Shown here: one piece after another, positions 1 to 27,803 of the stretch
Position numbering within the stretch: position 1 is the first letter of the stretch
Layout: every line of letters begins with the position of its first letter
Virus record (IMG/VR): IMGVR_UViG_3300021197_001663
Coordinates: 1 to 35,834 of that record
Reading direction: 5' to 3' (one strand)
From: a virus
DNA length: 35,834 nucleotides
The notes under the pieces: model-generated
What the model saw: only the letters and a program-made list of their open reading frames with translations
Databases searched by the model: none
What the model was told of the DNA's origin: nothing
Program-made: the position numbers and the translations under genes

Positions 1-131
1 AAGCGAACAAGGTGTTGCTGGCAATCCCTCACCCATTTGGGTTTGCGGGAATTGCTGGCGGGGCGTGTGGTTTCTTGTGTATTCATAGATTTTTAGTGGT
101 TATTCGGGATGCCAGAACTCAGACGTTATCC
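1..131 (-). repeat. attC-like site 1
   Basis: The core AAC at 6-8 pairs with GTT at 125-127. Unpaired segments are AAGGT (9-13) and TCAGAC (119-124). The stem is GTT(14-16)/AAC(116-118), CTGGCA(18-23)/TGCCAG(110-115) and TCCC(25-28)/GGGA(106-109), perfect apart from bulged G17 and A24 on one arm. The central loop is about 77 nt. The outermost bases may be missing because the window starts here. Confidence 0.8.
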
Positions 132-398
132 AAAGAATGCGTAACAGGCCACCCACGCTGAACGCGATACGGTCTTGGCGTGTTCCTCTGCATCGTTTCC
201 GGGGTGCGGTCGAATGCCTGAGCCTACGTCCTCCCACCATTGTTCAAATGGTGCGGATTTCAGATTAGTGTGGGCAAGTGCTTTTTCTAGCCTCTCAACC
301 TCCTCAAGCAAGACAGTGGCGACAGTAGGCCAATGTCCCGCTGACTCGTTTTGCGTGGCAATCTTAGCTTCTTCTAGCGGTGTTGGTTCTTCGTTCAT
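126..398 (-). CDS. Cassette gene, 90-aa hypothetical protein
   Basis: No family is recognised. The protein is acidic and soluble, with an N-terminal helix-prone half (MNEEPTPLEEAKIATQ, then a leucine/glutamate-rich stretch) and a C-terminal part containing FEQWWEDVG and a closing SAWVACYAFFG. It occupies one cassette. The start ATG lies 15 nt after the box GTTATCC (420-414 read on minus) and the stop TAA lies inside the matching box GGATAAC at 131-125. That tight fit between ORF and recombination boxes supports both the gene and the cassette. There is no Shine-Dalgarno; the leader is T/A-rich. An overlapping plus-strand ORF is lower quality and ignores the cassette borders. Confidence 0.62.
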   Translation of the reverse strand: MNEEPTPLEEAKIATQNESAGHWPTVATVLLEEVERLEKALAHTNLKSAPFEQWWEDVGSGIRPHPGNDAEEHAKTVSRSAWVACYAFFG

Positions 399-413
399 AA
401 TATCTCAAAAAAT

Positions 414-472
414 GGATAACAAGGCGATGCACAGGCAACGGCTACGCCGTGCCGTGATCTTGGGCGTTCGCC
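414..472 (-). repeat. attC-like site 2 (59 bp)
   Basis: GGATAAC (414-420) and GTTCGCC (466-472) are the outer boxes, with unpaired segments AAGGC (421-425) and TTGGGC (460-465). The arm 426-442 pairs with 446-459 around a TAC loop, perfect except for bulged G429, A433 and one A at 437/438. The length and the one-sided bulges are typical of minimal integron attC sites. Confidence 0.82.
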
Positions 473-681
473 TGAAACTTGCCCCAGTGGTCGGGGTGTG
501 TCTCGACCCACAGCGAGTGATCGGGGTTGGTTCTCTCTGCCCAAATCTCCATTCGCCCGTCGTGATGCTTCCTCGCCTTCAAACTCATGTATCTGCCGTA
601 TGTCCACGGATCGGAATGGCGAACAAGGCATCGTAGCCAACGCCTTACAGCGCGGGAGGGTTTGAATAATAGTTTTCTCAT
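442..681 (-). CDS. Cassette gene, small basic hypothetical protein (79 aa; 48 aa if started at 588)
   Basis: No family is recognised. The protein is rich in Arg, His and Trp, with SLKARKHHDGRMEIWAE in the middle and a hydrophilic C-terminus that reads through the attC boxes (stop TAG at 444-442, in the stem tip of site 2). The first ATG at 681 lies inside the next attC-like site (618-707), that is, in the preceding cassette in the direction of transcription. The cassette itself begins near 623, so the internal ATG at 588 (MSLKARK) is the start that would travel with the cassette. Translation from 681 would make an N-terminus encoded by the neighbouring attC. No Shine-Dalgarno supports either start. 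Confidence 0.5.
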   Translation of the reverse strand: MRKLLFKPSRAVRRWLRCLVRHSDPWTYGRYMSLKARKHHDGRMEIWAERTNPDHSLWVETHPDHWGKFQANAQDHGTA

Positions 682-707
682 GGCGTGGATAAATTTAGTC
701 GTTCTCT
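618..707 (-). repeat. attC-like site 3 (90 bp)
   Basis: The boxes are GGCGAAC (618-624) and GTTCTCT (701-707), with unpaired AAGGC (625-629) and TTAGTC (695-700). The stem is ATC(630-632)/AAT(692-694), TAGCCA(634-639)/TGGATA(686-691) and CGCC(641-644)/GGCG(682-685), with two mismatches and bulged G633 and A640. The bulges sit exactly as in site 1. Confidence 0.75.
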
Positions 708-1027
708 CTATAATAATTAAGAGCTTTAATCACCCATCTCTCGAACTGGTCTTGGATTTCACACGCATCATCCTCATTCATCCCAAGCCCTCCGCCGTCG
801 CCTATGAGATAGCCCCATGCTCTGATGTCTATCACGTTAGTATCTCCGCATTTGGTTTTTATGAATATCTTTCCCATGTCATATCCGTAGAATTTGCCGT
901 CGAATTGTTTAGGGAGAGAACAAGTCGAAGCACTGCAACCATTCGCCGTATTTAGCGGATGGTCTGGGCATTCAGGCGAATGACCGCTTTTCTGGCAGTC
1001 ACATTTATTACATTTTTCTATGCTCAT
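695..1027 (-). CDS. Cassette gene, cysteine-rich N-terminus plus small conserved-looking domain (110 aa; 60 aa if started at 877)
   Basis: The first 37 residues (MSIEKCNKCDCQKSG..., six Cys) resemble a small metal-binding knuckle but are encoded by the attC-like site at 915-1051. The rest reads FYGYDMGKIFIKTK...VIDIRAWGYLIGDGGGLGMNEDDA, a compact domain that I cannot name. The stop TAA falls two codons past the AGAGAAC box (AAC GAC TAA). The cassette starts near 920, so the in-frame ATG at 877 is the cassette-internal start. However, the sequence just upstream of it (FDGKFYGYD) reads like part of the same domain, so the long form is listed. If the long form is made, the protein is a fusion across a recombination site. 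Confidence 0.5.
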   Translation of the reverse strand: MSIEKCNKCDCQKSGHSPECPDHPLNTANGCSASTCSLPKQFDGKFYGYDMGKIFIKTKCGDTNVIDIRAWGYLIGDGGGLGMNEDDACEIQDQFERWVIKALNYYREND

Positions 1028-1051
1028 AGTGCGTGTTCTTAAACGTTATCA
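915..1051 (-). repeat. attC-like site 4 (137 bp)
   Basis: The boxes are AGAGAAC (915-921) and GTTATCA (1045-1051), with unpaired AAGTC (922-926) and TTAAAC (1039-1044). The stem is GAA(927-929)/TTC(1036-1038), CAC(931-933)/GTG(1033-1035) and GCA(935-937)/TGC(1030-1032), with bulged G930 and T934. The long central loop holds its own perfect 8-bp hairpin (940-947 with 975-982). Confidence 0.75.
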
Positions 1052-1237
1052 CAAAGATTCAATCTTTCCTGTTTCAATGTTGGCACGATACCACTCATCT
1101 GATCCTATAACGGTCATTTCAACGGTGTCATCCCTCATGCAGAGAGCTAGCTGATTGCCCCCCTCCGTTTCGAGAATGATGGAGTTGAATACATCTTTAA
1201 GGACTTGTTGCCCTTGTTCATTTATTTCTATTTTCAT
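1049..1237 (-). CDS. Cassette gene, 62-aa hypothetical protein
   Basis: The ORF begins MKIEINEQGQQVLKDVFNSI and continues with a short beta-rich segment (LALCMRDDTVEMTVIGSDEWYRANIETG). No family is recognised. The start at 1237 is chosen over the upstream ATG at 1342 because it lies 9 nt after the cassette box GTTATCA (1253-1247 on minus) and drops a leucine/serine-rich extension that merely translates attC-like site 5. The stop TGA is part of the box TGATAAC (1051-1045). Gene and cassette coincide almost base for base, the clearest case in the array. Confidence 0.62.
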   Translation of the reverse strand: MKIEINEQGQQVLKDVFNSIILETEGGNQLALCMRDDTVEMTVIGSDEWYRANIETGKIESL

Positions 1238-1246
1238 AAGCAAAAG

Positions 1247-1300
1247 TGATAACAAGCGGTTGCTACCAACCCTTCGGGCGGCAGAACTCAGTCGTTCGAC
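1247..1300 (-). repeat. attC-like site 5 (54 bp), phage-proximal end of the array
   Basis: The boxes are TGATAAC (1247-1253) and GTTCGAC (1294-1300), with unpaired AAGCG (1254-1258) and TCAGTC (1288-1293). The stem has GTT(1259-1261)/AAC(1285-1287), bulged G1262, CT/AG, a mismatch, CC/GG, an internal loop, and CCC/GGG around TTC. The AACTCAGTCGTT side closely resembles known attC ends. No matching GTCGAAC box exists further right, so this is the last site on that side. Confidence 0.75.
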
Positions 1301-1573: not shown

Positions 1574-1668
1574 AATGTTTATTTTAACCTTCGCGGATAT
1601 CAACGGCTACGCTGATCTCGTGTCTGAGATCTTTTTAAGGCTTTTCTACAGCAGGGTCAAGATTTTTC

Positions 1669-3904: not shown

Positions 3905-5683
3905 ATGAGAACAAAAATTAACACGCAGTTTGAGCCCTACCTGAACCCTGAATCTGGAAACATATCCGTGGGTGACTTAGAAATACCACAGACCAGTTTA
4001 CTTACCTCATTGTTATGTGGGTTTGCAAACCACGAAGGTGTAGAAGAAAAGGTGTATTATTTCTGGAGGATTTGTGATGAGCTATGGAATAGACCTGATT
4101 TCCCAGAGCCTATGATGGAGCGGAACCCGTGGTCCGACCGAATGATAAAAGAAGTGGCAGGGCACAAATACATGGCAATTGGTGGCGCCGCTTCCAGTAC
4201 TAAGTCCCATACAATGGCCGCGTGGGGTATCGTATGTTTCCTATCCCAGCCCAAGGATACGCTGGTCCTTGTCACCTCGACCACGTTACGGGAAGCACGG
4301 AAAAGGATATGGGGTTCAATTATCACCCTCTTGAACGTGGTAGAGGATGCACCATTCAAGATACGGGATTCAATTGGTAGTATCGCGTATGTCTCGCCAA
4401 CGGGGGTGGTTGTGGATAAGGCAGGTATATCTTTAATCGCGGCAGAGAAATCGAAGACGCGAGAAGCTGTGGGTAAATTCATCGGTATTAAACAAAAGAA
4501 CGTATTACTTATCGGGGATGAGCTCTCAGAGTTGTCAGAGGCTATCGTACACTCGGGCCTATCAAACTTATCAAAGAACCCCAACCTGAAAATCATCGGT
4601 ATGAGTAACCCTAACTCTCGCTTTGACGCATTCGGGGTGTGGGCGGAGCCGAGGGATGGTTGGGACTCAGTTGACACAAACGTCGCAGACGAGTGGGAAA
4701 CGAAATGGGGTGGTCAGTACATTCGCCTAGATGGGGAGAGGAGCCCTAACATAATCGCAGGGGAAGTAGTCTACCCATATCTACCAACCCAAGAAAAATT
4801 AGACGAGGACAAGGCATTACTTGGTCCTGAATCTAGGGCTTACATGCGGATGGTTAGGGCGGTGTTTTATGACTCTGATGAAGATGAGGGGATTTACACA
4901 GAAAACGAGATATCAAACAGCGGTTCAATGGGTAGCGTGCAGTGGGCGAGCAGACCGACGAAAGTCGCGGGGCTCGACCCTGCGTTTACTAATGGTGGTG
5001 ATAGGGCGGTGCTCTACACAGGGTTCGTTGGCTACAACTACCACGGAGACTTCGTGTTTGAGTTTGGGCGGAGCTATCAACTAAATGATGATGCCACCAA
5101 CAAAGCGGTCCCAAGGACATACCAGATTGTAACTCAAGTTAAAGACATATGCGTTAAAGAAGGGATCGCCCCTGACGATCTGGCGGTGGATGCCACTGGT
5201 GCGGGGTCGCCTTTCTGTGACGTCTTGGCGGGGGAATGGTCCTCACGATTTTTGAGAGTTCAGTTTGGTGGGAAGCCCTCGGACAAAAGGGTGTCTGTAA
5301 CTTCCACACTCAAGGGGACAGAGCTTTATGTCAACCGAGTCTCAGAACTCTGGTTCGTTGGTAAGGAGTTTATGAGGACTGGGCAGTTGTTTGGGGTAGA
5401 TACAGATCTAGCGCAGGAGATTATAGGACGGAACTATGAGCTCATTAAGACTGGGGGGCTCAAGGTAAAGATAGAGACCAAGGTTGAATTTAAATCAAGG
5501 TTGGGCAGGAGCCCTGACTTAGCGGATGCGGCTTTCCTATGCTTAGACTGCGCGAGACAAAGGCACGGGCTAATAACACAAGAGAAACGGGAGCAGGATA
5601 AGAGTCGAGGGTCATACACACGCCCCAATAGGAACATTAAGTCCATGAAGGACGCCCTACACAACGATGATGCTTACTTATAG
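3905..5683 (+). CDS. terL: Terminase large subunit (592 aa)
   Basis: This is the ATP-driven DNA packaging motor and headful/site nuclease. A Walker A-type loop GGAASSTKS lies at residues 93-101 (K100), a Walker B strand VLLIGDE at 200-206 (D205, E206), and an N-S-like sensor in IIGMSNPNSRF follows. The RNase H-fold nuclease has three acidic sites: GLDPAF (D358), LAVDATGAG (D429) and SPDLADAAF (D538, D541). The length is normal for phage TerL. The gene is divergent from the small-terminase-like gene and is followed by a nested palindrome and the virion genes. The ATG at 3905 is the first in-frame start after the TATAAT box. No Shine-Dalgarno is seen. Confidence 0.95.
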   Translation: MRTKINTQFEPYLNPESGNISVGDLEIPQTSLLTSLLCGFANHEGVEEKVYYFWRICDELWNRPDFPEPMMERNPWSDRMIKEVAGHKYMAIGGAASSTKSHTMAAWGIVCFLSQPKDTLVLVTSTTLREARKRIWGSIITLLNVVEDAPFKIRDSIGSIAYVSPTGVVVDKAGISLIAAEKSKTREAVGKFIGIKQKNVLLIGDELSELSEAIVHSGLSNLSKNPNLKIIGMSNPNSRFDAFGVWAEPRDGWDSVDTNVADEWETKWGGQYIRLDGERSPNIIAGEVVYPYLPTQEKLDEDKALLGPESRAYMRMVRAVFYDSDEDEGIYTENEISNSGSMGSVQWASRPTKVAGLDPAFTNGGDRAVLYTGFVGYNYHGDFVFEFGRSYQLNDDATNKAVPRTYQIVTQVKDICVKEGIAPDDLAVDATGAGSPFCDVLAGEWSSRFLRVQFGGKPSDKRVSVTSTLKGTELYVNRVSELWFVGKEFMRTGQLFGVDTDLAQEIIGRNYELIKTGGLKVKIETKVEFKSRLGRSPDLADAAFLCLDCARQRHGLITQEKREQDKSRGSYTRPNRNIKSMKDALHNDDAYL

Positions 5684-6590: not shown

Positions 6591-7448
6591 ATGGCAGAAT
6601 TTTCAATAGCGGGGGACATTACCCCCTTAAAAGGGGGTTATTTTGATACCCCATCCGTGTACGCCTCCGCCCTAGCGAGGAAGTATGCTGATACTTCTGC
6701 CCCTATAAAGCAGGGCACCATGCAAATGGCTGAGAAGATGATTGATACTGTTGAGAGAACTCGGAGTAGGGATATGCAGTATGAAACCCAAAAGCTAGCT
6801 TTAGATGAGGCTCGTAAGAGGTCTTCCCAGCAACGAGAGTTTAATGATAAAATAGATACCTTATCTTCTGTTTTTGAGGGTATAAACAATTCGGGCGATG
6901 ACCCCTACACTAAGCAACAGAAGTGGGGGAATTACGTGACTACGAATGCGGGGGCTTTTGCAGGGGGTGGGGACTCCATGCGTACGATGCTGAATGCCGC
7001 GAGTGCCACGTTCGGAGCGGCGGCAAAAAGAGATGAAATCAAACGTGTAGAGGAAGCTCGAAAAGAAAGCATAACCCTACGGAAATCTCTTCTACAACAG
7101 GACAAGGATACCAAGATAATTCAAAGTCAGCAGAGAGATCTCGAAAAGAAACTTGGGCGCGAGCGCCAAAAGATAGATGATTACCGCAGTGTTGTCGGGG
7201 GTATCAAATATGAGGATCCCGAGATATACGCGGAGGATCAAAAACCAAAGATGGAGCTCGCAAGCCGCAAGAGGCTAGAAGATCTAGCTATTAGACTTAG
7301 TGGAAAGCCGCGCGGAACTGTTGAGTCCCTCGATGATGACACTTTACGAAACGAACTTAGCATTCTCATAAACAGAGAAGAAAGATTAATACAGCCAGAT
7401 GCGGGGGGAACCACCCGTGGGAAAGGATTCACATCCTTTTTTGAATAG
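6591..7448 (+). CDS. Putative internal virion (ejection) protein with long coiled coils (285 aa)
   Basis: After a short N-terminal segment (AEFSIAGDITPLKGGYFDTP), the protein is mostly helical. Coiled-coil-like heptads run through about residues 45-95 (AEKMIDTVERTRSRDMQYETQ) and 145-205 (RVEEARKESITLRKSL, then IIQSQQRDLEKKLGRERQKIDDY), separated by an Ala/Gly-rich hydrophobic stretch (NAGAFAGGGDSMRTMLNAASATFGAAA). This build, together with the position just before the giant virion gene, resembles ejection proteins that form the trans-envelope channel in podoviruses. No homologue can be named. It starts 9 nt after the previous stop and lacks a Shine-Dalgarno. Confidence 0.62.
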   Translation: MAEFSIAGDITPLKGGYFDTPSVYASALARKYADTSAPIKQGTMQMAEKMIDTVERTRSRDMQYETQKLALDEARKRSSQQREFNDKIDTLSSVFEGINNSGDDPYTKQQKWGNYVTTNAGAFAGGGDSMRTMLNAASATFGAAAKRDEIKRVEEARKESITLRKSLLQQDKDTKIIQSQQRDLEKKLGRERQKIDDYRSVVGGIKYEDPEIYAEDQKPKMELASRKRLEDLAIRLSGKPRGTVESLDDDTLRNELSILINREERLIQPDAGGTTRGKGFTSFFE

Positions 7449-7485: not shown

Positions 7486-10400
7486 ATGTCTGAACTACCT
7501 AGCCTACTAACGCCTTCGCAAGAAGAGACCACCGCCCCTGAATTTGACTCATACTCCATTTGGGAATCTAAGAATAGTCAGCAGGACCATATTGGGGATC
7601 GCAAGAGATACTCAGATTATGTGCGTCAGTCATACCTACAGGCAGGTTCCTATGATGGGGGCGTCGAGAAATCAATCCGTGATGGGCTAAAGGAATCCCT
7701 AATTCAAGTAGGTGCGGTTGATCAGGGGGACGAGGACACCTTCAACCAGCTATTAAAGACTGAGAAGCCACCACTCGAAGATCAGCTTCGTTTTATACAA
7801 TCAACTGCTAAGTCTGATTCGGAACAGTGGATGTCCGCAACCCAATACTTAGCTTTCCAAAATGCTTTAAATGACGGGGACTTAGAGAACAATCCAGATC
7901 TCGCCCAAAAGGAGAAGGAGCACCGTAGTCGTGCTGAACAGACTGCCAACACGTATTACAATACAGCACTCCGTAATGCAGTATCCGCAGGGGAGATTGC
8001 CATGGCGAAAGTGACTGACTCAGAGGGGATGGAAGAGGTCATCGCTGGACCGCTGATGCGCCACATGAGCTTTAATGAAGCCTTAAAGCAATCAGTATCA
8101 GTTGGGGGTATGAGCTACAGCGATGCCGCTGAAGCACAGAGGATATCTGAAACCCCTATCGGGTATCAGGAACCACGATACAGGGTCAAGGAATATGAGA
8201 ATGTTAGTCTTTTGATTGACTCGTTATCTAAAGAGAACGAAAATGTTAGCAACTTATTTTCTTCGTATCAAGAATCCCTAGCGGAACTTCAGGATGAGGA
8301 CGTATCCCCCGAACGTAGGGAAGTATTAGAAGAGAGAATGGAATCTGCCACCACCACTGTGGAGCACTACTTAAATGTAAGCGGTCTTCGTGAGGGGGAG
8401 GAGGATGTTGACCTCGATAATGTAAGAAAGGCGATGGAGCATAACGCCGCACATGCCCTGAACTCCAGTGGGGGTTTTGAATACTTTGAGGATGCTAAGG
8501 ACGCAGGAAAAAATTTACGGCGATTAGGGTATGCTATGCCCCTTATACACCCAGCCACCATGGCAAACCCTGAGGCGTACGAGGCCACAATAAGTGCAAA
8601 CCCCGACCTAACCCCTGAGGAAGTAAAGCTCCTCGCAACACACCGTGAATTATTCCTCGAGAGTGAGTTTGAGAGTTACAGCAAAACCCTTGTAGACAGC
8701 GATGTCTCGGAAGAGTGGCTTGATGCCCTCCACGAGGGGAGAGCTAACAAAGTTAAGGACACTGACACCTTACAAGAATTTTTAAAAAACCCTGATAATT
8801 ACAGTGCTGTTTCCTCCCGCCTCCGAGGAGTAGGGGGGTCTATTGTAGATGGTGTTGGGGATATGTTTGCGGCCATCCCCGCCATGATGGGTGCAGACTG
8901 GGCTAAGGACTACCTCGTCAACAACATGAGGGAGAAGTCCAACCGCCGAGAAGTCGCACGGTTGTTTGGGGACGATTTTGGTTTAGGGCAAGACATCGCT
9001 GAACAGATCGCCCCGATGCTAGCCGACATGGCGGCAACGACTGCACTCGCCGCCGCTACCGCTCCCGCCGCAGGTGCTGGAGGTGCCGCATACCTTGCCG
9101 CTAAACAAGGTGCGAGATTAACCGCAAAAGGCATCGCAAAAGGATTAGTCACAAACACTTTACGTGCCTCAGGAAGTGAGGCAACTCGCCTAGCCGCGAA
9201 GCGCTTAGTATCACAAGGCCTCATCAAAGGAGCCACCAAGGAAGTAAGTGAGGAAACCGCAATGGGGGTCATCAAAGGTTATAACAAAGCCATAGCCAGT
9301 AAAATGGGTATTATACCTGCTATGTTTATCCCCGCCGCCAACAGATCCGCGGGGGCAACCTACGCCTCTGTTTATGACCAGCTTTCTCGGACAGGTGACC
9401 TGTCTGACGAAGAAATTAGAGATCGCGCACTAGGTGCGGCTATGACCGCAGGAGCGCTAACTGGAACAATTACGGCAAGTTTTTCCGCTTTGGGTCGTGC
9501 TGGTTTGGAAGGCGCATTAATTGGAGGCCTGAACAAGAAACAGGTCAAAGCAGTTTTAGATGGCGTAGCAAACCGCGGAGGTCAGGTTGGTGAGATGTCA
9601 GAGAGTGCGTTCAATACAATTGTTAAGAAAACAATTGCAACGACGTTAGCAAAACACGGTGGCTACACGGGTCTCGCTAAGACTGTGGGGACTAATGTTG
9701 TAGATGAAGCCGTTGAAGAAGGGTTTGACGAGTTTGCGAATACATTCGTAATGGATTCCGCCCTTGACGAGAGCACCCCTTTCCTCGAACGCCTCCAACA
9801 AGCAGGTCATGCCGCTGTTATTGGTGGTATAATGGGTGGTGGCGTCCCAACCATACGCCACGTAGCTGGCTCACTTAACGCCAAGCGTAACATCCTTGCC
9901 GAACAAACGAAAGTAGACCAAGCGTTCAGGGCGGAGGTTGCCACAAATGTCGAGCAAGCGGGGCTACCTATTACGGCAAAGCAAGTAGACTTTTTACTAA
10001 ATCTACCCGCACGTAGGCGTGAAGAAATTACCAATCGTGTATTAAGTGCTAAAGAAACCCTTCAAAAACAAGAAGCTGACCTATCAGAAAAAGCTCAAGA
10101 GGACGCGCCTTCTGTAGAAGAAGTCACTGGGTTCTCGAGGAAGATGGGGGACGGGGTACTAATCCGAAGAGGGACTAGAATCAAAGACCTCTCTATAGAG
10201 CACCGTACCGAGTATGAAGCGGCCCGTAAAGTAATGGAGCAGGACCTATCAATTGATGGGTTAACCAAAGATGGGAAAACAAGGTACTCAGTAACCCCAC
10301 ACAAAGGAAATCGTATCCCAGCAGGCAGACCTATTCACAAGCTGTCACCAACTGAATATGAATTTTATCAGGTAGTGATGAGATCCAAAGCCGCTCGGGA

Positions 10401-13400
10401 AGGTATAGAGTTAGGTGAGTTCCCGCCACAATCAGAGTTTACACCTGAGGAAAAAGTAACTCGGAACACGGACCGTGGGGCTACTTCCAGCCCCTCAGGT
10501 AAGAACCCGAAGAAAACCAAATCCACCAAGAGAAAAAAACCTGCGGTTTCTGAAGATGAAACGGAAGATGAAACAGAGGAGGACACAGATACTGATGTTG
10601 AATCCATCCAATCAGGGGACATCTTCGCTTTGACGGAGGATGGTGTTGAGACACAGATAGAAGTTCTCGAGGTTCTCAGCCCCTCGGAGGCCGCTACGAG
10701 ATATAGTGGGTTAGGTATAGACGAAGGGGAGTATCTTTTTGGTAGCCTAATGGAATCCAACGACGTTGTGGTATCCGCGAGGTCTGTCGTAGTTGGTCAA
10801 GAAACTGAAGGTGAGATCCTATGGTTTATGGGGGACCCCACGGGGTCTGTTCTGGATATGGAACAACTCAGCCAGAGTGCCCCAGACGTAAGTCAAGCTA
10901 ACACCGTAGTGGTAGCCCCCGTGGAGAGTGATATTGTTTTTGGGGACCCCATCAATGAAACCACCCCCGTAAGTTCTTTGCGGGCTATGGAAGAAGCCGC
11001 AGAAGCCGAGCTACGTTCTAACCCATATGACGGCCCCGCCGCCCAGCAGTTGGAACTCGCACAGAGTTTATTAAAAGAGCGTGGTGAACCTACGGCAACA
11101 CAACGCCGTGCGGAACTCCTGAAGAAACAACTACTAGATGAAGAAGTCACACGCACACAAAGCGCACTCGATAATTCGGATGTAACCGAGGAAGAGATCG
11201 AAGAGATGATCCGCACTAAGCGTGAGGAGAATGTGAAAGCAATAGGACGCATTCAACCTCAGGAGGAGACCCCCGAAACCCTTATAGGCTATTTACCTGA
11301 AGTTGAGGGATCCCCGCTCGCCACATTCGCTCTGGATGATAATGCACTCAAGCAACTCTTCCCCCTTGAGACTAAGCCATCCCCGAATCTCCCACCTGTA
11401 AAAGCTGGAAAAGTTCCCGCCACCCCCATCTCAAAAGTCGAGGGCATTACCGCACCGACGGCGGCAGAAATGATCCAACGTCATCAGATGGATCAGTTTA
11501 GAGCCCTTGTCGCGTTAGGTTACCCTGTTACATTTGAAGCTAAGGCAATGAGAGGTATGTATGCCCAATCTGAAGGATCAGGTCCAGAGGCTTACGGTAA
11601 AATATTAGGGCTCGAGAAGGGCGTAGGTTACCGAGCCTACATCAGGCAAAACCTCGCGGCAAAAATAATTGAGGTTTACCCCCATCTCGACATTGGAGAT
11701 GTTGAAAGTCTTATCGTTGAGGACCTAAAATCCGCGGAGAAGAGAGCTTCGAGGGCCGCAGACAGGGAGCCGTTTATAACTATTAAGAAGCTCACCACTT
11801 CCCAACGTCAATCCGTAAATAACAATCTCCTAAAACCTGAGGGTAAAAAGTACACTGAGAAGCAGGCATTGAAGCTCGCTGAGGAGTTACGTAAAGTAGC
11901 TGATAAGAGGGGTGGCCAACTCGCCAAGACCTTAATAACTAAAGCGGATGAGATTGAAGCAAGGGTAGCAGATACGCCCCGCCCTGAACCGAAGGTTAAG
12001 TTAGACAAATCCTATAGACCATTCACTTCTAATAGAAAAGTTTCACAAGCTGTAGTAGATAGCGATGGTAACGTGACCACCGCCCACAAGGTTATTCGTG
12101 GGGCTATCGACCGTGATGGACGTGGGGTATTCAATAATGACCCTGTTCTAGTCGGTGAGATGTTATTAAGTGGTATCCCTATCAAGATACCCGCCGACAT
12201 CCTACGCGGTGTTGGGGATATCCGAAAAGAGCAGATTAACCCCGCTATCAGATACGACCGAGACGGATTTGTCCAAGCTGTTCGGGTGATGAATGCGGAT
12301 GGCACGCATACGGAAGCCTATCAAGCCCCACGGAGGAAACAAAGAACAGCACCTGCAACCACGTATAGTGATTTGACGGCGAACATCGTCGGGATATTTA
12401 ACAAAGGTCTCCCCCTACCCCTACCTAAGGTAAAAAGATTTAACACTTCAGGTGATTTAGATGCTGGGAATATCGCCATTAAAGGTGGTAAGCCAGAGAC
12501 TACATCATTAAATGATTTCCTTAGTGACTTCGAGGGCTTTATCAAAGCTGGTATGGAGGGTATGAGACCCGACACACAGTTGAGTGTGGGGATGGACCAA
12601 GTTTCAGAAGGTAATCTGAGGGAGGAACGCTCACGCGAAGAAGCCAAGATCGTAGCGGAGATATCGGGACTCAAACAAGACCTTGAGGACACTCAGAGGA
12701 TAAACCCTAGAAGCGAAGAGATCACATCACTTCAGGAGGATATTCTACGATTGGAAAACCTCTTAGGGAAGATAGAGGAGAGAAACTCCCGACGCTCCCG
12801 CCCAGAACCCCAAGAAACCACCAGTAAAGCCGCACGTAAATTAAGCATGATGTTGAATGACCCGAAAGGGAAGCTTCTGCATTTACCCCCTGAGTACTTC
12901 TCTACTGCCGTTGCGGCGTTCCATGCGGAGTATGCCTTAACTGCCCAACTCCATGGGATACGAAACCAGATTACTAAGAGAAAAGGTATGGTTAGTCAGG
13001 ATGAGGATGGGGTGTTTTCTATTGCCCCCGATAAGATGGAGCACGCCGCTCGATTGTTCTTAACCTACACTGAGCAACCTGATGGTTCCCGCCCTGATAT
13101 CGGGAGGGTAGCACATCTTTTAGGTAAACGTATGAACCTCCAAGGTTCAGCATATGATGTAGATAACAGATCCAACAAAGATATGAGCAACTCTGAGAAA
13201 CAAGAGATGCACTATGGAACTATCGTTACCTATATTGAATCCCACATCCTGAATCATGAATCCTTACTCTTGGGCAATATGCCCTCGATGGCGACGATTG
13301 CTAAACGAATCAAGGATCGGTATCAGGCACAACGTCTCCTTGAAATAAAGGGCGCCCCCGCCGAGGTGAGCATGGACGCGTTTGAAACTGAAGAGGAACT

Positions 13401-16400
13401 CCAAGCGTTCCTCCAAGCCTACCAAGACACAGAGGTAGGGGAGAAAATGCAAACTACTGGTCGCAGTAGGCGTGATCCATTTAAGGGAGTCCCCGTTGAG
13501 GCTACCCCGCTCACTGTCGAAGAGGACGAGAATGCTATTGCAGAAGCCCTCGACAGGGCGACCCTCGAGTCATACCACCCTGAGGATGTAAAAGATCTAA
13601 GGGAGGTGGCTGACATTGCCATAGAGCTCCGCGACTCCCTCTACAAAAACGCCCGTGAAAGGGTGATTAGCCACATCGAAACAGACCCGACCGCCCGAAA
13701 GGCGTTTATTGATATGTTGAGACGTACGGTTGATCGGAACAATGGCGTGATCCAAAAGTCCTACGACAACATGAATGTAGCAACCGCATGGGACTCATTA
13801 GCTGGAACCATTGACGGCGCCACGTATGAACATGAACCAGAAATCCTCGGGTTCCTGAGGAACCTACGTCTAGGAAAGCTGGAATCTGGAGTAGACCTGC
13901 GGGAGGCATTGAAATTTATTGTGTTCCCAACTGAGGTTAGTGACGAGTTCGCAAGGTCAATGATCAAGCCGCTGAATGACCTAGAGCTTCGGGATTCATC
14001 ATACACGGTGCAGGAAGCAAAGACTATCCTCAATGGACTCGCCGCAGTGATCAGACAGAGGAAGTCAACTTCAATAGCAGACACGGATGCTTCTCGTGAA
14101 GCCGCCCGTAAAGAAAACGGAGAGGTAGTTTCCCAACTCACACTCGAGTCAGGGGATCCCTCTTCGGTCATATCGGCGCTAGAAGAGATCAGAAAATCAG
14201 ATGAAAACGAGAACCACCAATTGGTAGCGGATCTATTACTCGAGGACTCGGAGTTTATCTCAACTGTAAATTTCCACATCGTAGATTCCACTACGGCAGT
14301 AGCTGGGTTATATGAAAAGACCGCAGACGGGGAGCATAACGTGACACTTAACCTTGCAGGCTCGAATGGTCGCGGTTTAGTTAACGTCCTCCTTGAGGAA
14401 TATATACATGCGTTCACGTCTGATATCTTGGCTAGACCTGAGGGCTCACTAACTAAAGCTCAGGCGATGGCTAGGAACAGGCTCAAAGGGTTAATGAAAA
14501 TAGCTAAGGCTGAGTTCGTCAGCCGTGACACCCAGTTTGAAACAGTTAAGCTAGGGTTTGAAAATGTCGATGAGTTCGTTGCTAACTTTTTACTTAACCC
14601 AACATTCCAATCATTCTTAAAATCAGTTGAGACCCCTGCGAAACAGCGAGGGTTGATGTCACGTATTATCGAAGCGATTGTCACCATGTTCCGTAAGATC
14701 ACCAACGGGAAGATAACCCCGAAGGAGGTATCACAATACACCGCCGCGTTGAATGACATCGTAGACCTAACACGGTCAGACATGAAAGGAAGTAGAGGTA
14801 CTGTTGAGCAATCGTTATCCGAAAGCATTGATGACGCAAACTCCAATGCCAAAGACATCGAGTTTCATAAGGGGGAAGGTGCCCAAACTGACATTAAATC
14901 ACCGATAGAAGTCATCGGGTCAACCCAACTAGAACTCGGGTTAGACGTTTTAGAGGAGAGCATGAATGTATCTTCCGAGATGGGGGCAGACATGGAGCGC
15001 AACATACAATCCGTGGTTGAACAGCTTGTTAATAGCCCACACTTACTACCTAGCGGAATGCGAAACTTAGACGCTACAGAGCTCCAAGATCAGCTAGAGG
15101 GGGTCATAGTGTTCTTGAGATCCTATACACCCCCCGAGGTCAACTTCCAAGTTGATTGGGGGCTTGATTCCTCAATGGCCTTCAAAGGCGGGGTTATATA
15201 TCTTAACCCCACTAAAATGGCGGGTGTAGTTAGTGGCATGTCCCAGACAAACTCCAACATTACAATGCTCTCAATCCTAGATGAGGAGCTAGCCCACTAC
15301 GCAAGTTACAATGTCCTAACGGAACAGGAAATCATGCAGGTTGGTCAAGCCTTAGGTGTTGAGGGGCTATCAAAAGTTGCAGAGGATTATTACCAGACTG
15401 ATGAACTACGCAATAGTGCGAAGGAGCGGCTCCGTTCCGAGGACCCAGATGTCGTGGCAGAAGAAACTTATTCCATGGTGGAAGAGTATCTACGCATGAG
15501 GGCTAATAAAGCCATGAAAGGGTTTACTACTGAGCAAGATGTTCAGTTCCTCAAAAGTAACCCATCTCTGACAAGTGTCATTTTCAGGTATGTCCGAGGG
15601 GTGATGGTCTCACTTATCGAGAGATATAAGTTAAGTGGCAGAACTACCAACATTGATAGCAAAGTCAATAGACTTATCATGGAACTCCGCCAAGTTAAAT
15701 CAGGGTACCGCCAAGGCCCCAACGGGGTGGCGTTCGACCCTAATAACCCTGAAGCGAACCTCGTGTTACTCGAGGCTATCATGGGGGAAAAAATTAGCAT
15801 AGATGTAGCCAAAGAAATGGGGTATGACGTTGGACCAAAATACTCTGCCTCCAGCGTAGGGGGATCAGCGGATATTGCGGGGGAGTCCTCACTGGATTTC
15901 TCTTACATACCACAAATATTTGAGGTTCCACTCATGCACGCAGGACCTTATGCCGCACCCAAGAAATTTGCGAGCCTGTTCCAAGGTGATGCAGATCCAC
16001 GGTTGACACGTCTTTATGACCTTTTCCAAGACACACAGCGTTGGGGCGAAAAGATTCTCAAGGACTTCAGCGTGTCGTTTAATAAGGAAGTTAAAAAGGC
16101 ATATGGATCACTCGAGGCCGCCCCAACTGAGTTATTTAATGAAGCGATAGGTAGTAGCGTAGGAGCTGTATTGGATCAGGATGTTTACGACAACCTCGAG
16201 AAAGATCGTCAAGACGCCATCCAACTACTAAACGCCGAGAAGGATCTTACCACAGAAGAAAGGGAGTCTTCCCTCGCGTTGATTGACGCCCGCCATAATT
16301 CTAAGAGATCGGATGCGGAGTCAGCCGCCGCTGACGCGATCCGAGTTAAGCAAGAACTCGCCATGGATCAAATTAGGCAGGCTTCACCGAAGTTGGCAGA

Positions 16401-19005
16401 GCTCATACGCACACTGCGGGTGGACATTATTGATACCCTATCCAAGCGGGTTAGGGATACACATCAAGTATCAGATCAACTCGGAGCAAGGATTGATAAC
16501 CAACTCGGGATTTACATCACCAGAACATATAAGATGTTTACAGAGTCTGGACATTATCAGAGAACCTTGGACGGCATCAAACAAGGTAAAGGCGACTATG
16601 TAGAAATGCGAGACCAAGCGATTGATTTGTTTGAGCGTCAGTTTGTCGAAGCTAGGGTGGAATCCCTACTCAAAGATGAGGAGATGTCATCCTCGGAGGC
16701 GTTAGCCCAAGCCCGTCACGAGCTACGTAGTAATCCAAAACTAGGTTACAACGCACTTATGGATTTCATTTATTCTTACTCACAAGATAGTGAAGTTGCC
16801 CTAGGTAACAGGTCCACGGGATATAAGATGGCGATGAACAACTTACGGAGAAAGCGTCATGACCTACCTGAGGAACTACAAAACATTCTAGGTAAGAATG
16901 ATGACCAAGGATTAGACAACCTACTAAGGACGTTCGCTACTGTGAACACGATGACCGCCACTCAGACATTCCTTGAGCGTGTGAGAGTCATCGGCACTGC
17001 CACCCACCAGAAGGGGGCAACCCTTGAGGATAAATTCCTACTCACCGCGCAGGAGCTTGAGGAAGCTAAGGCTATAAGTGACGAGAATTACCAGAAGTAT
17101 AGCGAGTGGGAGCCTGTTCGCCAGTCTGACCTAGGTGCCGAGGATCCCCTGCATGGTCTTTGGGCCCCAAAAGATATGGTCGATTCGTTCCGCCAGATGA
17201 CTTCCAAACAGAACATGTCTCAGTTCTCTGATACGACAGCGGGTCACGTGGCCGGTAATTTGCTAAAATTAGCTCATAGATCAACAGGTGCGGCTATGGC
17301 AACAAAAACCTTAGGATCCGCAGGGTTCTACGTCCGTAACATACTCTCCAACATACTTTTCTTCGGACCTTCTCAAGGGTTCTGGAGGATGGACAAGATG
17401 TTCAAATCCGCGGCGAAGCACATAACACAAGTCGCAGTCAACCCTAATAAAGTTGATGGGTATATTTCAGAGCTCTATGGCTTGGGGGTTATAGGGGCTG
17501 AGATACAATCTAAGGTGATGATGGACCTGTTTAATGGCACGTCCGATGTCCATTCCCTACAACGTCAGGTTGACGAGCTAACTGCTAAGGCGGAAGCGAT
17601 AGAGCAGGGGGCTGATAAAGCCAAAAAAGTAGTAGGGCAAACAGCAGAAGCGGTCTATAAAAAAGCGGCGGAGATGGCATCCGCAGTAGACGCCTTCTAT
17701 AAGATAGCTTACTTTGAGCACGAGGTATCCCACCTACAGAGAGCACGCGAGGAGGCGCTTGAAGGGGACCGTTACTTCGAGTTATCAGACCGCGTCTTAA
17801 AGGTGGAAGCGGCACGGAAGGTGCGTATGACGTCACAGTCTGCCGACCAAGTGATGCCTATCGTGCAACAGATGACGAAGGCGGGTTACGGTTTAATGTT
17901 CGCCCCGTTCCTTCGATTCAGAACGGAGGTAATACGGATCCCAATTAACACAGTTAAGTTAGCCCTTGAGGAGATAAGATCTGGCAACTCCGTTATGCAA
18001 GCCCGAGGACGTCAACGTATGACGGGTTTATTGACTGTGATGGCGGGGTGGTCAACGGTGTTACCCGCCGTGGTCGCAATGATAGCTGATATCGGTGATG
18101 AGGAGGAGGAGGCTCTCAGAGCGTCTATGCCTGATTATCTCCGTGGGAATACCTTCTTCTACTTACGAGACAAAGAGGGGGAGCTAACCTCCTATGACTT
18201 CACGTACATTAACCCGTTCGCAATGATAGTTGATCCATTTTTACGGGGTTTCAATTCCATGGTGCGGGGGGACATCAGTGATGCCACGGTGGGTGTTGCT
18301 AAAGGATTGGTGTCAGACATACTATTCGATGACCAGATCTTAGCGGGCTCGCTCCTATCTATCTCGAACAATGAAGACCCCACAACGGGTGACCCAATAT
18401 ATGAAGAAACCACTGATTCCGTTGGTGATATAGCGGGGAAGGTTATGGGCCATGTATTTAAAGAAGCCTACAAACCTGACTTCTGGAAACGGGGTGAGGC
18501 AATATATGATGCACAAAGTATAGAGGCGGAGAAATTCGAGGATACATCCGCTGGCATTGTATTAACCGCATTCCGACCCCTGAAGCCACACACGATCGAC
18601 GCGGGCAAGCAATTCCGAAACTTCTTATTCCAGAAGAAGGGCGAGTTTAGCCGCGCTAATAAAAGGCAGTTCAAAATATTTAATAAGAAGCCTATGTCGG
18701 AGGAGTCCATCCGTGAATTGTATCTAAAAGGTATCAAAGATAATAAGATAATCAGTGAAGATATGTTACGTAAGATGGGGGGCTTCGAGAAACTCGGCGT
18801 CAGCAAGAAAGAAATGTATCACACTATGGTCAAAGCAGGGTTCGGGAAACGACGGGTGCAGAACATTATGAATGGTGTAATGGATGTCCCGATGATCAGC
18901 CCGCAGAAGGCAAGGCGACTTCAAGAGGAAGGTATCATCGAGCGAGGTAGGGTCATCTTTGAAGAGAGGGCGAAGCTACCACGCCAGATTGAGCTTAATC
19001 CGTAA
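7486..19005 (+). CDS. Giant internal virion / polyvalent ejection protein (3839 aa)
   Basis: At about 420 kDa this gene fills a third of the window. Visible parts: a helical N-terminus; an Ala/Gly-rich membrane-active region at about 510-560 (MAATTALAAATAPAAGAGG) with further hydrophobic stretches to about 790; an acidic linker (about 1010-1040); two metallopeptidase-like motifs in which the first His of HExxH is Glu, EEYIH at 2304-2308 followed by ENVDEFVANFLLNP, and EELAH at 2600-2604; and a C-terminal module typical of large phage polyvalent proteins, with VDAFYKIAYFEHE at about 3401, FAPFLRFRTEVIR at 3472 and a transmembrane helix at about 3512-3537. Such proteins are packed in the capsid and injected with the DNA. 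No RNA polymerase motifs were recognised. The gene ends at a strong terminator. Confidence 0.82.
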   Translation: MSELPSLLTPSQEETTAPEFDSYSIWESKNSQQDHIGDRKRYSDYVRQSYLQAGSYDGGVEKSIRDGLKESLIQVGAVDQGDEDTFNQLLKTEKPPLEDQLRFIQSTAKSDSEQWMSATQYLAFQNALNDGDLENNPDLAQKEKEHRSRAEQTANTYYNTALRNAVSAGEIAMAKVTDSEGMEEVIAGPLMRHMSFNEALKQSVSVGGMSYSDAAEAQRISETPIGYQEPRYRVKEYENVSLLIDSLSKENENVSNLFSSYQESLAELQDEDVSPERREVLEERMESATTTVEHYLNVSGLREGEEDVDLDNVRKAMEHNAAHALNSSGGFEYFEDAKDAGKNLRRLGYAMPLIHPATMANPEAYEATISANPDLTPEEVKLLATHRELFLESEFESYSKTLVDSDVSEEWLDALHEGRANKVKDTDTLQEFLKNPDNYSAVSSRLRGVGGSIVDGVGDMFAAIPAMMGADWAKDYLVNNMREKSNRREVARLFGDDFGLGQDIAEQIAPMLADMAATTALAAATAPAAGAGGAAYLAAKQGARLTAKGIAKGLVTNTLRASGSEATRLAAKRLVSQGLIKGATKEVSEETAMGVIKGYNKAIASKMGIIPAMFIPAANRSAGATYASVYDQLSRTGDLSDEEIRDRALGAAMTAGALTGTITASFSALGRAGLEGALIGGLNKKQVKAVLDGVANRGGQVGEMSESAFNTIVKKTIATTLAKHGGYTGLAKTVGTNVVDEAVEEGFDEFANTFVMDSALDESTPFLERLQQAGHAAVIGGIMGGGVPTIRHVAGSLNAKRNILAEQTKVDQAFRAEVATNVEQAGLPITAKQVDFLLNLPARRREEITNRVLSAKETLQKQEADLSEKAQEDAPSVEEVTGFSRKMGDGVLIRRGTRIKDLSIEHRTEYEAARKVMEQDLSIDGLTKDGKTRYSVTPHKGNRIPAGRPIHKLSPTEYEFYQVVMRSKAAREGIELGEFPPQSEFTPEEKVTRNTDRGATSSPSGKNPKKTKSTKRKKPAVSEDETEDETEEDTDTDVESIQSGDIFALTEDGVETQIEVLEVLSPSEAATRYSGLGIDEGEYLFGSLMESNDVVVSARSVVVGQETEGEILWFMGDPTGSVLDMEQLSQSAPDVSQANTVVVAPVESDIVFGDPINETTPVSSLRAMEEAAEAELRSNPYDGPAAQQLELAQSLLKERGEPTATQRRAELLKKQLLDEEVTRTQSALDNSDVTEEEIEEMIRTKREENVKAIGRIQPQEETPETLIGYLPEVEGSPLATFALDDNALKQLFPLETKPSPNLPPVKAGKVPATPISKVEGITAPTAAEMIQRHQMDQFRALVALGYPVTFEAKAMRGMYAQSEGSGPEAYGKILGLEKGVGYRAYIRQNLAAKIIEVYPHLDIGDVESLIVEDLKSAEKRASRAADREPFITIKKLTTSQRQSVNNNLLKPEGKKYTEKQALKLAEELRKVADKRGGQLAKTLITKADEIEARVADTPRPEPKVKLDKSYRPFTSNRKVSQAVVDSDGNVTTAHKVIRGAIDRDGRGVFNNDPVLVGEMLLSGIPIKIPADILRGVGDIRKEQINPAIRYDRDGFVQAVRVMNADGTHTEAYQAPRRKQRTAPATTYSDLTANIVGIFNKGLPLPLPKVKRFNTSGDLDAGNIAIKGGKPETTSLNDFLSDFEGFIKAGMEGMRPDTQLSVGMDQVSEGNLREERSREEAKIVAEISGLKQDLEDTQRINPRSEEITSLQEDILRLENLLGKIEERNSRRSRPEPQETTSKAARKLSMMLNDPKGKLLHLPPEYFSTAVAAFHAEYALTAQLHGIRNQITKRKGMVSQDEDGVFSIAPDKMEHAARLFLTYTEQPDGSRPDIGRVAHLLGKRMNLQGSAYDVDNRSNKDMSNSEKQEMHYGTIVTYIESHILNHESLLLGNMPSMATIAKRIKDRYQAQRLLEIKGAPAEVSMDAFETEEELQAFLQAYQDTEVGEKMQTTGRSRRDPFKGVPVEATPLTVEEDENAIAEALDRATLESYHPEDVKDLREVADIAIELRDSLYKNARERVISHIETDPTARKAFIDMLRRTVDRNNGVIQKSYDNMNVATAWDSLAGTIDGATYEHEPEILGFLRNLRLGKLESGVDLREALKFIVFPTEVSDEFARSMIKPLNDLELRDSSYTVQEAKTILNGLAAVIRQRKSTSIADTDASREAARKENGEVVSQLTLESGDPSSVISALEEIRKSDENENHQLVADLLLEDSEFISTVNFHIVDSTTAVAGLYEKTADGEHNVTLNLAGSNGRGLVNVLLEEYIHAFTSDILARPEGSLTKAQAMARNRLKGLMKIAKAEFVSRDTQFETVKLGFENVDEFVANFLLNPTFQSFLKSVETPAKQRGLMSRIIEAIVTMFRKITNGKITPKEVSQYTAALNDIVDLTRSDMKGSRGTVEQSLSESIDDANSNAKDIEFHKGEGAQTDIKSPIEVIGSTQLELGLDVLEESMNVSSEMGADMERNIQSVVEQLVNSPHLLPSGMRNLDATELQDQLEGVIVFLRSYTPPEVNFQVDWGLDSSMAFKGGVIYLNPTKMAGVVSGMSQTNSNITMLSILDEELAHYASYNVLTEQEIMQVGQALGVEGLSKVAEDYYQTDELRNSAKERLRSEDPDVVAEETYSMVEEYLRMRANKAMKGFTTEQDVQFLKSNPSLTSVIFRYVRGVMVSLIERYKLSGRTTNIDSKVNRLIMELRQVKSGYRQGPNGVAFDPNNPEANLVLLEAIMGEKISIDVAKEMGYDVGPKYSASSVGGSADIAGESSLDFSYIPQIFEVPLMHAGPYAAPKKFASLFQGDADPRLTRLYDLFQDTQRWGEKILKDFSVSFNKEVKKAYGSLEAAPTELFNEAIGSSVGAVLDQDVYDNLEKDRQDAIQLLNAEKDLTTEERESSLALIDARHNSKRSDAESAAADAIRVKQELAMDQIRQASPKLAELIRTLRVDIIDTLSKRVRDTHQVSDQLGARIDNQLGIYITRTYKMFTESGHYQRTLDGIKQGKGDYVEMRDQAIDLFERQFVEARVESLLKDEEMSSSEALAQARHELRSNPKLGYNALMDFIYSYSQDSEVALGNRSTGYKMAMNNLRRKRHDLPEELQNILGKNDDQGLDNLLRTFATVNTMTATQTFLERVRVIGTATHQKGATLEDKFLLTAQELEEAKAISDENYQKYSEWEPVRQSDLGAEDPLHGLWAPKDMVDSFRQMTSKQNMSQFSDTTAGHVAGNLLKLAHRSTGAAMATKTLGSAGFYVRNILSNILFFGPSQGFWRMDKMFKSAAKHITQVAVNPNKVDGYISELYGLGVIGAEIQSKVMMDLFNGTSDVHSLQRQVDELTAKAEAIEQGADKAKKVVGQTAEAVYKKAAEMASAVDAFYKIAYFEHEVSHLQRAREEALEGDRYFELSDRVLKVEAARKVRMTSQSADQVMPIVQQMTKAGYGLMFAPFLRFRTEVIRIPINTVKLALEEIRSGNSVMQARGRQRMTGLLTVMAGWSTVLPAVVAMIADIGDEEEEALRASMPDYLRGNTFFYLRDKEGELTSYDFTYINPFAMIVDPFLRGFNSMVRGDISDATVGVAKGLVSDILFDDQILAGSLLSISNNEDPTTGDPIYEETTDSVGDIAGKVMGHVFKEAYKPDFWKRGEAIYDAQSIEAEKFEDTSAGIVLTAFRPLKPHTIDAGKQFRNFLFQKKGEFSRANKRQFKIFNKKPMSEESIRELYLKGIKDNKIISEDMLRKMGGFEKLGVSKKEMYHTMVKAGFGKRRVQNIMNGVMDVPMISPQKARRLQEEGIIERGRVIFEERAKLPRQIELNP

Positions 19006-21716: not shown

Positions 21717-23297
21717 TTACAAGTACTTTGATATGCTACTCATCCCTACCCCTGTGTCTAGCCACTGTTGGAAATCAACAGCAAGCCCGCGGATGTGATC
21801 AACAGACGAGGAACTCCCCCGATACATATCCAATATGATTGGCTCACTATCATTAACGAAGTCCCCAAATGTCTTACGGTAGTGCATCGCGTAACACAAC
21901 TCCCGAAATAATCGGAACCGATTAATTAGTTGGGCTCGTGTCTGGACACGGGACACTAACCTGAACTCGACAACCCCGTTCCGTTTGGATCGAATACAGG
22001 CATACCTATCCTCGTGATCATACTCCTCATATGATGGGTTGATACGTTTATTTTTATTGGAGTTATGGTTGTCTAGCCTACCACGATAGAGGGCGTAGAA
22101 TAGACCTGCGTAATCCCTTACCGTTGCTAAGGTGACATTAGGCCCACTCAGATTAACGTGACCCCCACAAGATAAATTGGATGGTAGGTCTACGAGGGGG
22201 CTGTTACCTACATCATCCTTGAACTGATCGAAGTTCATAATAGAGTAGACATGAGTAATCCCCTCTATGCCACATGACGAGTCTGTCTCCCACCCTGCGA
22301 AGAGTGGTTCAGAGGGGAGCACATCCCCGCATTGATTCAAACGCCCTCCCGTATCAGGACATACGGCGTAATTCTTTTCGATTTCAAATCCCAATCCATA
22401 TTTCCATAAGGCGGATCGCCCGCGTTGGTTGCTAAATGTAGCCTCACCTAACCCCACACCTAGCCTACTCACAAGTTGCGGGAAATACATTTTAGGTGGT
22501 GGGGAAGAATGATACTCATGGATGTATCCCCCCATATCAAGCAGGGCTTCATCCTCAGGAATCCACCCCCTAATGTCACAGTGGTAATAACCCTCCTCAT
22601 CTGGAGCGGCATAGAATGCGGCGCCACCACGTGGCTCGATCCGTCTCATGTCATGTACAAAGTACCACCCCCGCTCATGCTCCGTGACATAGCTTACGTC
22701 TGGGTCAACAAATCTGAAATCCCCATAATAGGGGGCTAGCCTTATAGCTTTAACTATAGGGCATACGCCAGAGTCCGTATAGACACAGTCTCTTACCGAC
22801 AAGATCTCATCACCATACAGTACATATCCAGATACTGAATCAACCCTCCCCTCCGCTACCCGTAGAGGCGCACAGTCCTCTGTGGGTATATAAGTCAGGG
22901 GATCATCAGGGCTCTGATAGCAGAAATATCCATCACTCCCACCCATGAGGGGATGTGTCCATTCATCAGCAAGAGCATCCACAAGAATACGCTGACCGAC
23001 CGCGCCGCATCTCTCAGATACTGGACGGATGCTAGCGAGATTGGGGTATGCCCACTCCCCGCCTCGGATGGGGATTGCAAAGCTCAAACACCCACCCATG
23101 TATGGGTCTAGGATGATAGCCCTATCAACGCCAGATGGCACTAGGCTCCTGAATTCTTCTCTTGTGCAACTTACTAAAATAATGTCCTCCAAATGCTCAG
23201 GGAGGTTGAGCTTCTCTCTGCTGGACGCAGGTAATTCAAAGTCCGCTAATGTTGTTTCTTGTTCTGTCATTTTTTCTATTGTTTTTGTTTTGTTCAT
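21717..23297 (-). CDS. Amidoligase-like protein 1 (526 aa)
   Basis: The C-terminal half carries the amidoligase (Amidoligase_2 / COOH-NH2 ligase) pattern: GFEIEKN (E305, E307), GWETDSSCGIEG, CGGHVN (H380), ALYRGRL and VVEFRLVSRV. These enzymes have a glutamine-synthetase-like fold and are predicted to form amide bonds between a carboxylate and an amine using ATP. The N-terminal half (about 1-290) is a beta-rich region full of Tyr, Asp and Gly that I cannot name; it may bind the substrate. It is a paralogue of the protein at 25467-26831 and stands with a glutamine amidotransferase/GGCT fusion, a partnership known for this family. The start at 23297 follows the same AAACTACA-ATG leader as the repeat-protein genes. 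Confidence 0.75.
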   Translation of the reverse strand: MNKTKTIEKMTEQETTLADFELPASSREKLNLPEHLEDIILVSCTREEFRSLVPSGVDRAIILDPYMGGCLSFAIPIRGGEWAYPNLASIRPVSERCGAVGQRILVDALADEWTHPLMGGSDGYFCYQSPDDPLTYIPTEDCAPLRVAEGRVDSVSGYVLYGDEILSVRDCVYTDSGVCPIVKAIRLAPYYGDFRFVDPDVSYVTEHERGWYFVHDMRRIEPRGGAAFYAAPDEEGYYHCDIRGWIPEDEALLDMGGYIHEYHSSPPPKMYFPQLVSRLGVGLGEATFSNQRGRSALWKYGLGFEIEKNYAVCPDTGGRLNQCGDVLPSEPLFAGWETDSSCGIEGITHVYSIMNFDQFKDDVGNSPLVDLPSNLSCGGHVNLSGPNVTLATVRDYAGLFYALYRGRLDNHNSNKNKRINPSYEEYDHEDRYACIRSKRNGVVEFRLVSRVQTRAQLINRFRLFRELCYAMHYRKTFGDFVNDSEPIILDMYRGSSSSVDHIRGLAVDFQQWLDTGVGMSSISKYL

Positions 23298-23320
23298 TGT
23301 AGTTTATTAGTTTTTGTTTT

Positions 23321-23410
23321 GTGTTGCTTGAAAGAATATCAAACACCACATTGCAACCCATCGGTTTAATTGGCGATTAAACCGACGGGCTGAGTATGTG
23401 GGGTTTATTA
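23321..23410 (-). repeat. Repeated intergenic hairpin, copy 1
   Basis: A GC-capped 14-bp stem (CCCGTCGGTTTAAT type) with an outer arm of about 11 bp lies between the stop of the gene at 23411 and the leader of the gene at 23297. It is followed on the minus strand by the conserved block GATATTCTTTCAAGCAAC. One stem pair is G-U in the minus-strand transcript but A-C in the plus. No T-run follows, so it is not a simple terminator. Confidence 0.9.
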
Positions 23411-23860
23411 TTATAAGGACTTCAGTTGATACTTCACACCGTCAACCTCGACGACCTTACCCTCGCAGGTCTTGGATGCTCGCGGTGTTCCCGTCTTGGA
23501 GCCGTTGCTGTTTTCGAAGTATGTCTCATTACCATCAGAGTCATATTCACGCTTAACCCAGGAGCCGTTGCTGTTTTCGAAGTATGTCTCATTACCATCA
23601 GAGTCATATTCACGCTTAACCCAGAAGCCGCCGCTGGTTTCGTAGTGTGTCAAATTCCCCGCTGAGACATACTCACGTTTACACCAGTAGCTGTCGCTGT
23701 TTTCGTAGTATGTCAAATTCCCCGCTGAGTCATACTCATGCTTACGCCAGTAGCCGTCGCTGGTTTCGTAGTATGTCACGTGACCCGCTTCATCTCTGAT
23801 CTCGATTGGGAATGTAAACGCAACTCTCATTTCCTTATATACTTCACTTAGTTTTTTCAT
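23411..23860 (-). CDS. YD/YEN-type 21-residue repeat protein, five repeats (149 aa)
   Basis: The N-terminus MKKLSEVYKEMRVAFTFPIE is followed by five tandem 21-residue units of the form EYDSDGNETYFENSNGSWVKR, then a fixed tail with CEGKVVEVDGVKYQLKSL. The units resemble the short beta-strand repeats of RHS/YD type and probably stack as a small beta-sheet. The family is familiar to me from environmental phages, but its function is unknown. Two paralogues (26958-27344 and 27459-27779) have four and three units, with identical ends, so repeat number is what varies. The gene is bracketed by hairpin copies 1 and 2, and its leader AAACTACA-ATG is identical in all three. Confidence 0.78.
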   Translation of the reverse strand: MKKLSEVYKEMRVAFTFPIEIRDEAGHVTYYETSDGYWRKHEYDSAGNLTYYENSDSYWCKREYVSAGNLTHYETSGGFWVKREYDSDGNETYFENSNGSWVKREYDSDGNETYFENSNGSKTGTPRASKTCEGKVVEVDGVKYQLKSL

Positions 23861-27344: not shown

Positions 27345-27368
27345 TGTAGTTTATTAGTTTTTGTTTAC

Positions 27369-27779: not shown

Positions 27780-27803
27780 TGTAGTTTATTAGTTTTTGTT
27801 TAC

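Follow-up and report, generated by a model that had tools for sequence, protein, structure and literature searches.

Integron gene cassettes are swappable units through which genes are traded among bacteria. Clusters of attC sites lacking an integrase (CALINs) have been described in both virulent and temperate phages by Qi et al. 2023, together with recombination assays, and phage attC sites recombine with attI1 through IntI1 (PMC9892861). The cargo of these published phage clusters includes DNA methyltransferases, and the cassettes of two of the phages follow the usual layout, with gene and attC site in the same direction (PMC9892861).

Here we analyze a cassette array at the left end of a 35,834-base virus record, a fragment of a tailed-phage genome whose whole length we refer to as the window. 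The array resembles the published phage CALINs in being an attC cluster without an integrase in a phage genome, and it shares with sedentary chromosomal and class 1 integron arrays the site architecture, the G|TT exchange point and the border rule, by which each cassette opens with bases reverse-complementary to its own R'' box. It departs from those integrons in that intI was not found in it, in that its R boxes read GTTA or GTTC followed by varied bases instead of GTTRRRY, and in that its cassette genes run antiparallel to attC. Unlike the published phage CALINs, for two of which the paper reports a same-direction layout (PMC9892861), it combines antiparallel genes with starts in attC loops, and close phage pairs document cassette turnover. 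The suggestion, made from the sequence alone, that integron cassettes carried by a phage would be a novelty was too strong given the 2023 report of phage CALINs (PMC9892861); phage cassette arrays are a kind already known, and the features for which we found no earlier description are the antiparallel genes and the starts within attC. We consider it likely that the locus is a genuine integrase-less cassette array (CALIN) of a marine phage, turned over by an integrase supplied in trans.

Architecture and detection of the attC sites

Five attC-type recombination sites, all on the plus strand, and four complete cassettes occupy positions 1-1300 of the window (Table 1). In each site the cores are AAC...GTT, R'' is followed by 5 nt that open with AAG, and R' is preceded by 6 nt; to this extent the single design that had been proposed for the five sites stands. 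The clean stems proposed with it, in which single bulged bases would be the sole irregularity, do not: the sites at 618 and 915 pass relaxed rules only, and the stem at 1247 contains one mismatch. The R boxes pair only partly within each site. The border rule holds for all four cassettes at 7 of 7 bases, exactly as first read, including the R boxes on either side of the site at 915; with GTT/AAC given, four free bases match in each of four cassettes, which has a chance probability of about (1/256)^4.

Table 1. Features of the cassette array and its genomic context in the window. Site descriptions give R'' box / 5-nt segment / L'' ... L' / 6-nt segment / R' box; cassettes run from G|TT to G|TT.
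Feature	Position	Strand	Description
attC site 0	2..131	+	AGCGAAC / AAGGT / GTTGCTGGC ... GCCAGAAC / TCAGAC / GTTATCC; long loop, 8/8 L pairs; left end cut by contig edge
attC site 1	414..472	+	GGATAAC / AAGGC / GATGCACAG ... CCGTGATC / TTGGGC / GTTCGCC; best-scoring in window
attC site 2	618..707	+	GGCGAAC / AAGGC / ATCGTAGCC ... GGATAAAT / TTAGTC / GTTCTCT; imperfect stem
attC site 3	915..1051	+	AGAGAAC / AAGTC / GAAGCACTG ... GCGTGTTC / TTAAAC / GTTATCA; long loop, imperfect stem
attC site 4	1247..1300	+	TGATAAC / AAGCG / GTTGCTACC ... GGCAGAAC / TCAGTC / GTTCGAC
Cassette 1	126..466	+	GTTATCC start, GGATAAC R'' box; 4/4 free bases
Cassette 1 ORF	126..398	-	90 aa, antiparallel to attC
Cassette 2	467..701	+	GTTCGCC start, GGCGAAC R'' box; 4/4 free bases
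Cassette 2 ORF	442..681	-	79 aa, antiparallel; start codon within attC site 2 loop
Cassette 3	702..1045	+	GTTCTCT start, AGAGAAC R'' box; 4/4 free bases
Cassette 3 ORF	695..1027	-	110 aa, antiparallel; start codon within attC site 3 loop
Cassette 4	1046..1294	+	GTTATCA start, TGATAAC R'' box; 4/4 free bases
Cassette 4 ORF	1049..1237	-	62 aa counted from internal ATG, antiparallel
Right edge of variable block	1583..1640	.	attC-like remnant (read by eye) running into hairpin GATCTCgtgtctGAGATC, then TTTTT
Terminase-like ORF	3905-5683	+	named from sequence and place
Portal-like ORF	32858-35146	+	named from sequence and place

Two methods were used to seek sites. The first, a structure scan that finds bacterial attC sites beside integrases, looks for AAC and 5 nt, then an L'' interrupted by an extrahelical base following its third position, a loop and L', and finally 6 nt and GTT; the second is a position model trained only on 39 bacterial attC sites. 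The strict L''/L' stem rule, with the extrahelical base at that same position, is passed by three of the five window sites, which are also the top three window matches of the 39-site model (414-472, 23.2; 2-131, 19.1; 1247-1300, 14.2); all three exceed 12.7, the highest value that this model gave in 1.07 Mb of dinucleotide-shuffled sequence (30 windows). Retraining on 37 sites, after two outlying training sites (L135) had been dropped, gave scores of 21.1, 17.8 and 10.5, respectively, and one match at 9 or above in 3.0 Mb of shuffled viral loci, the 30-window control applying to the 39-site model only. A relaxed scan recovers all five sites, adding 618-707 (score 11.4) and 915-1051 (score 5.4), for which the boxes, the spacers and the place in the array are the main support.

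A covariance model built from 23 bacterial attC sites, whose calibration is rough, was significant for one of the five window sites (414-472, 19.4 bits, E 0.0034) and returned clear sites in the records L002, L064, L086, L206 and L251, with sites of the sister and other phages reaching up to 34.5-42.6 bits (L002, 34.5 bits; L251). Of the window sites, when folded as DNA, only 414-472 is more stable than its shuffles (z -2.1); z is near zero for the remaining four, and 618-707 forms no stable long hairpin; sites of L002 and L013 reach z -3.5 to -5.2. Since two stems are weak and four of the five sites fold no better than shuffles, parts of the window array may be decayed. The attC models that had been proposed as a check on the array do detect it, with the qualification that they are bacterial-trained models of our own making and not that of IntegronFinder, and that the covariance model picks up only 414-472. 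Rfam returned no family at its threshold, and we know of no attC family in that database. Matches in L006, L035, L036 and L049, located downstream of the terminase, were treated as spurious. The scan recovered no sites in TJE1 and P12002L, both published CALIN phages; its sensitivity is therefore limited, some attC types being missed, and the absence of sites in relatives is weak evidence.

The sequence-only reading had noted the absence of an integrase and proposed a search for intI. No tyrosine recombinase (PF00589) was matched in the window, and no integron integrase (TIGR02249) in 50 viral records that include a 97.8%-identical sister phage; all of these may be fragments, and an integrase may lie beyond their ends. 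PF00589 was matched in three of the 13 records examined (L330, L338 and L339, all of which may be fragments). Searching plasmids with IntI1 yielded near-identical class 1 copies only, and of the six loci that an integrase query yielded in viral contigs, five were IntI1 copies at 99-100%. One strict pattern found no host with the same attC type among 398 Pseudomonadota genomes. The intI gene that defines a complete integron was not found in the window, a record that may be a fragment, an attI site would lie left of position 1, and the locus agrees with the definition of a CALIN (at least two attC sites without a nearby integrase) in having five sites and no integrase in the record.

A run of leftward genes, facing away from the terminase gene, ends in the array, which thus lies outside the packaging operon at whose 3' end it had been placed. 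Pfam and PHROG gave no family for either the terminase-like or the portal-like ORF. Candidate stretches of viral contigs include 472 relatives of the terminase-like ORF, and 80 of these were retrieved; cultured phages gave no match to this ORF, which therefore offers no clue to the host. Elsewhere in the window, a single plus-strand ORF of 3,839 aa (7486-19005) probably encodes a giant virion protein, and, downstream of the portal-like ORF, the contig ends within an ORF that has tandem NTPAPEGD repeats (35549-35834). Three related small ORFs on the minus strand (23411-23860, 26958-27344 and 27459-27779) start with MKKLSEVYKEMRVAFTFPIEIRDEAGH and contain short internal, YD repeat-like repeats, with many repeat matches to the sister phage that suggest copy change. 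A stretch of ~60-130 bases, perhaps a common leader or promoter, is repeated in the window and the sister phage, with window copies at about 23284-23418, 26872-26965, 27332-27459, 27767-27894, 29251-29380, 29629-29764 and 30188-30243.

Cassette turnover between close relatives

Comparison of related phages, another check proposed at the outset, reveals gain, loss and exchange of cassettes, the breaks falling at G|TT in the R' box. For 4,600 bp rightward of the array L012 and L013 have 99.65% identity, which breaks off one base to the left of a common GTTCGAC box, and four different attC-like sequences are joined to the same GTTCGACTCAAAG in L012, L013, L030 and L014. In silico removal of a 1,436-bp cassette from L013 at G|TT reproduces the L030 arrangement, with 94% identity over 590 bp and no gap. 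Excision or insertion exactly at G|TT is hence observed in relatives of the window (L012/L013/L030), not in the window itself. The 1,436-bp cassette encodes QueD, which scores above its NCBIfam cut-off, a Pfam-assigned nucleoside deoxyribosyltransferase and an otherwise unassigned protein in PHROG 15826; this cargo may function in 7-deazaguanine DNA modification. Another part of the same L013 block contains a QueE-like gene.

Within the window's own group (the window, L001 and L002), identity is 93.6-97.9% from about position 1613 rightward, and to the left the three differ apart from one cassette body common to the window and L002; the right edge shows no clean GTT junction in this group. L020, L021, L301 and L305 are without the GTTCGAC border and have no attC there. 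In L012, the cassette block is bordered on its left by an inverted repeat (TCGTGAAATCT ... AGATTTCACGA; 4910-4950).

Antiparallel genes and start codons within attC loops

The longest ORF is antiparallel to attC in all four window cassettes, departing from the usual, though not universal, same-direction arrangement. Across five phage records the antiparallel ORF is the longer one in 11/11 cassettes, whereas the bacterial set, which includes L180, a viral record with an integrase, has a longer parallel ORF in 24 of its 29 cassettes; the unit of both counts is the cassette and not an independent event, and long spurious ORFs may contribute. According to their ORF list, the L330 cassettes are antiparallel too. 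Two viral records were excluded from the phage arrays for orientation: L180, with its integrase and antiparallel longest ORFs, and L206, whose cassette is canonical-looking and parallel. In the latter, a 7.5-kb viral contig, an attC site accompanies a DNA methyltransferase-like gene (7002-7439, minus strand). In the openly accessible papers searched, of which the 2023 CALIN report comes closest, we found no description of an antiparallel layout in phage arrays.

Among sites with loops of at least 30 bases, an antisense start within the loop, defined as an antisense ATG whose frame runs at least 20 codons out through the R'' box, is present in 10 of 15 phage sites and 1 of 17 bacterial sites. 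The same test in the sense direction gives 7/15 and 2/17, so part of the antisense excess reflects open frames in general. The sites at L086 8617-8715 and L339 4831-4929, in two otherwise different phages, encode a similar leader with an MTTAP start.

The individual window ORFs differ in their support. The cassette 1 ORF, which starts 15 bases from the R'' box and has its TAA stop within the other box, has no Pfam or PHROG assignment. Cassette 2 makes a weak case for a gene, and a parallel ORF of similar length is present. The cassette 3 ORF matches PHROG 12467 (E 4.4e-5), and its body is the one common to the window and L002; the changes between the two fall 3, 3 and 15 by codon position in the minus-strand frame, supporting real coding. 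Its protein has no match among cultured phages. Accessory or anti-restriction roles of the cargo appear plausible.

Alternative explanations and a proposed mechanism

The attC model matches, the border rule in four of four cassettes and the G|TT turnover in relatives together support the integron-type array first proposed from the letters alone. The imperfect stems at 618 and 915, the weak folds of four window sites and the lack of an integrase in the searched records would also be expected of a decayed, inert array that derives from a single acquisition from a bacterial integron and has since varied only through ordinary homologous recombination among phages. We judge this unlikely in view of the junctions of L012, L013 and L030, which fall exactly at G|TT, the four different attC-like sequences on one box, and the near-perfect L002 site (34.5 bits, z -4.1); homologous recombination between short attC repeats could yield some of the junctions, but without preference for the base left of GTT.

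It is far less probable that the sites are attC look-alikes, that is, palindromic mobile or repeat elements in small coding genes. The coding loops, and the placing of sites inside small ORFs or at their beginning, are in keeping with such elements, but the 5-nt and 6-nt spacers, the extrahelical base, the border rule and the turnover of whole cassettes fit integron sites, and the sites match a model trained on bacterial attC only. Least credible of all is a chance pattern or an assembly chimera: the array is truncated where the contig stops and the sister contig ends nearby, but shuffled viral sequence produced a single match at 9 or above in 3.0 Mb, and the same right flank with a related cassette occurs in contigs from separate metagenomes.

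Under the favored reading of a CALIN served in trans, the integron integrase would most likely be supplied by the host and would act on the folded bottom strand, cutting and joining phage attC sites at G|TT. Entire cassettes would therefore enter and leave at a variable spot close to the terminase gene, within the leftward run of accessory genes. The inverted orientation may be kept by selection so that the phage's leftward transcription, presumably as an operon, can read the genes, and a long-looped attC would supply the start codon and first residues of the protein of its own cassette. More speculatively, with somewhat less than even confidence, phages may maintain a cassette pool of their own, in which genes are inverted relative to attC, the loop serves as translation start and leader peptide, and 7-deazaguanine-type modules are swapped between near-identical phages by a host integrase.

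These results show that in uncultured phages cassettes turn over naturally, with the exchange at the expected base, and link phage genomes to the bacterial cassette pool. They suggest that a gene can begin within the recombination site itself, and they make the use of a host integrase by phages directly testable.
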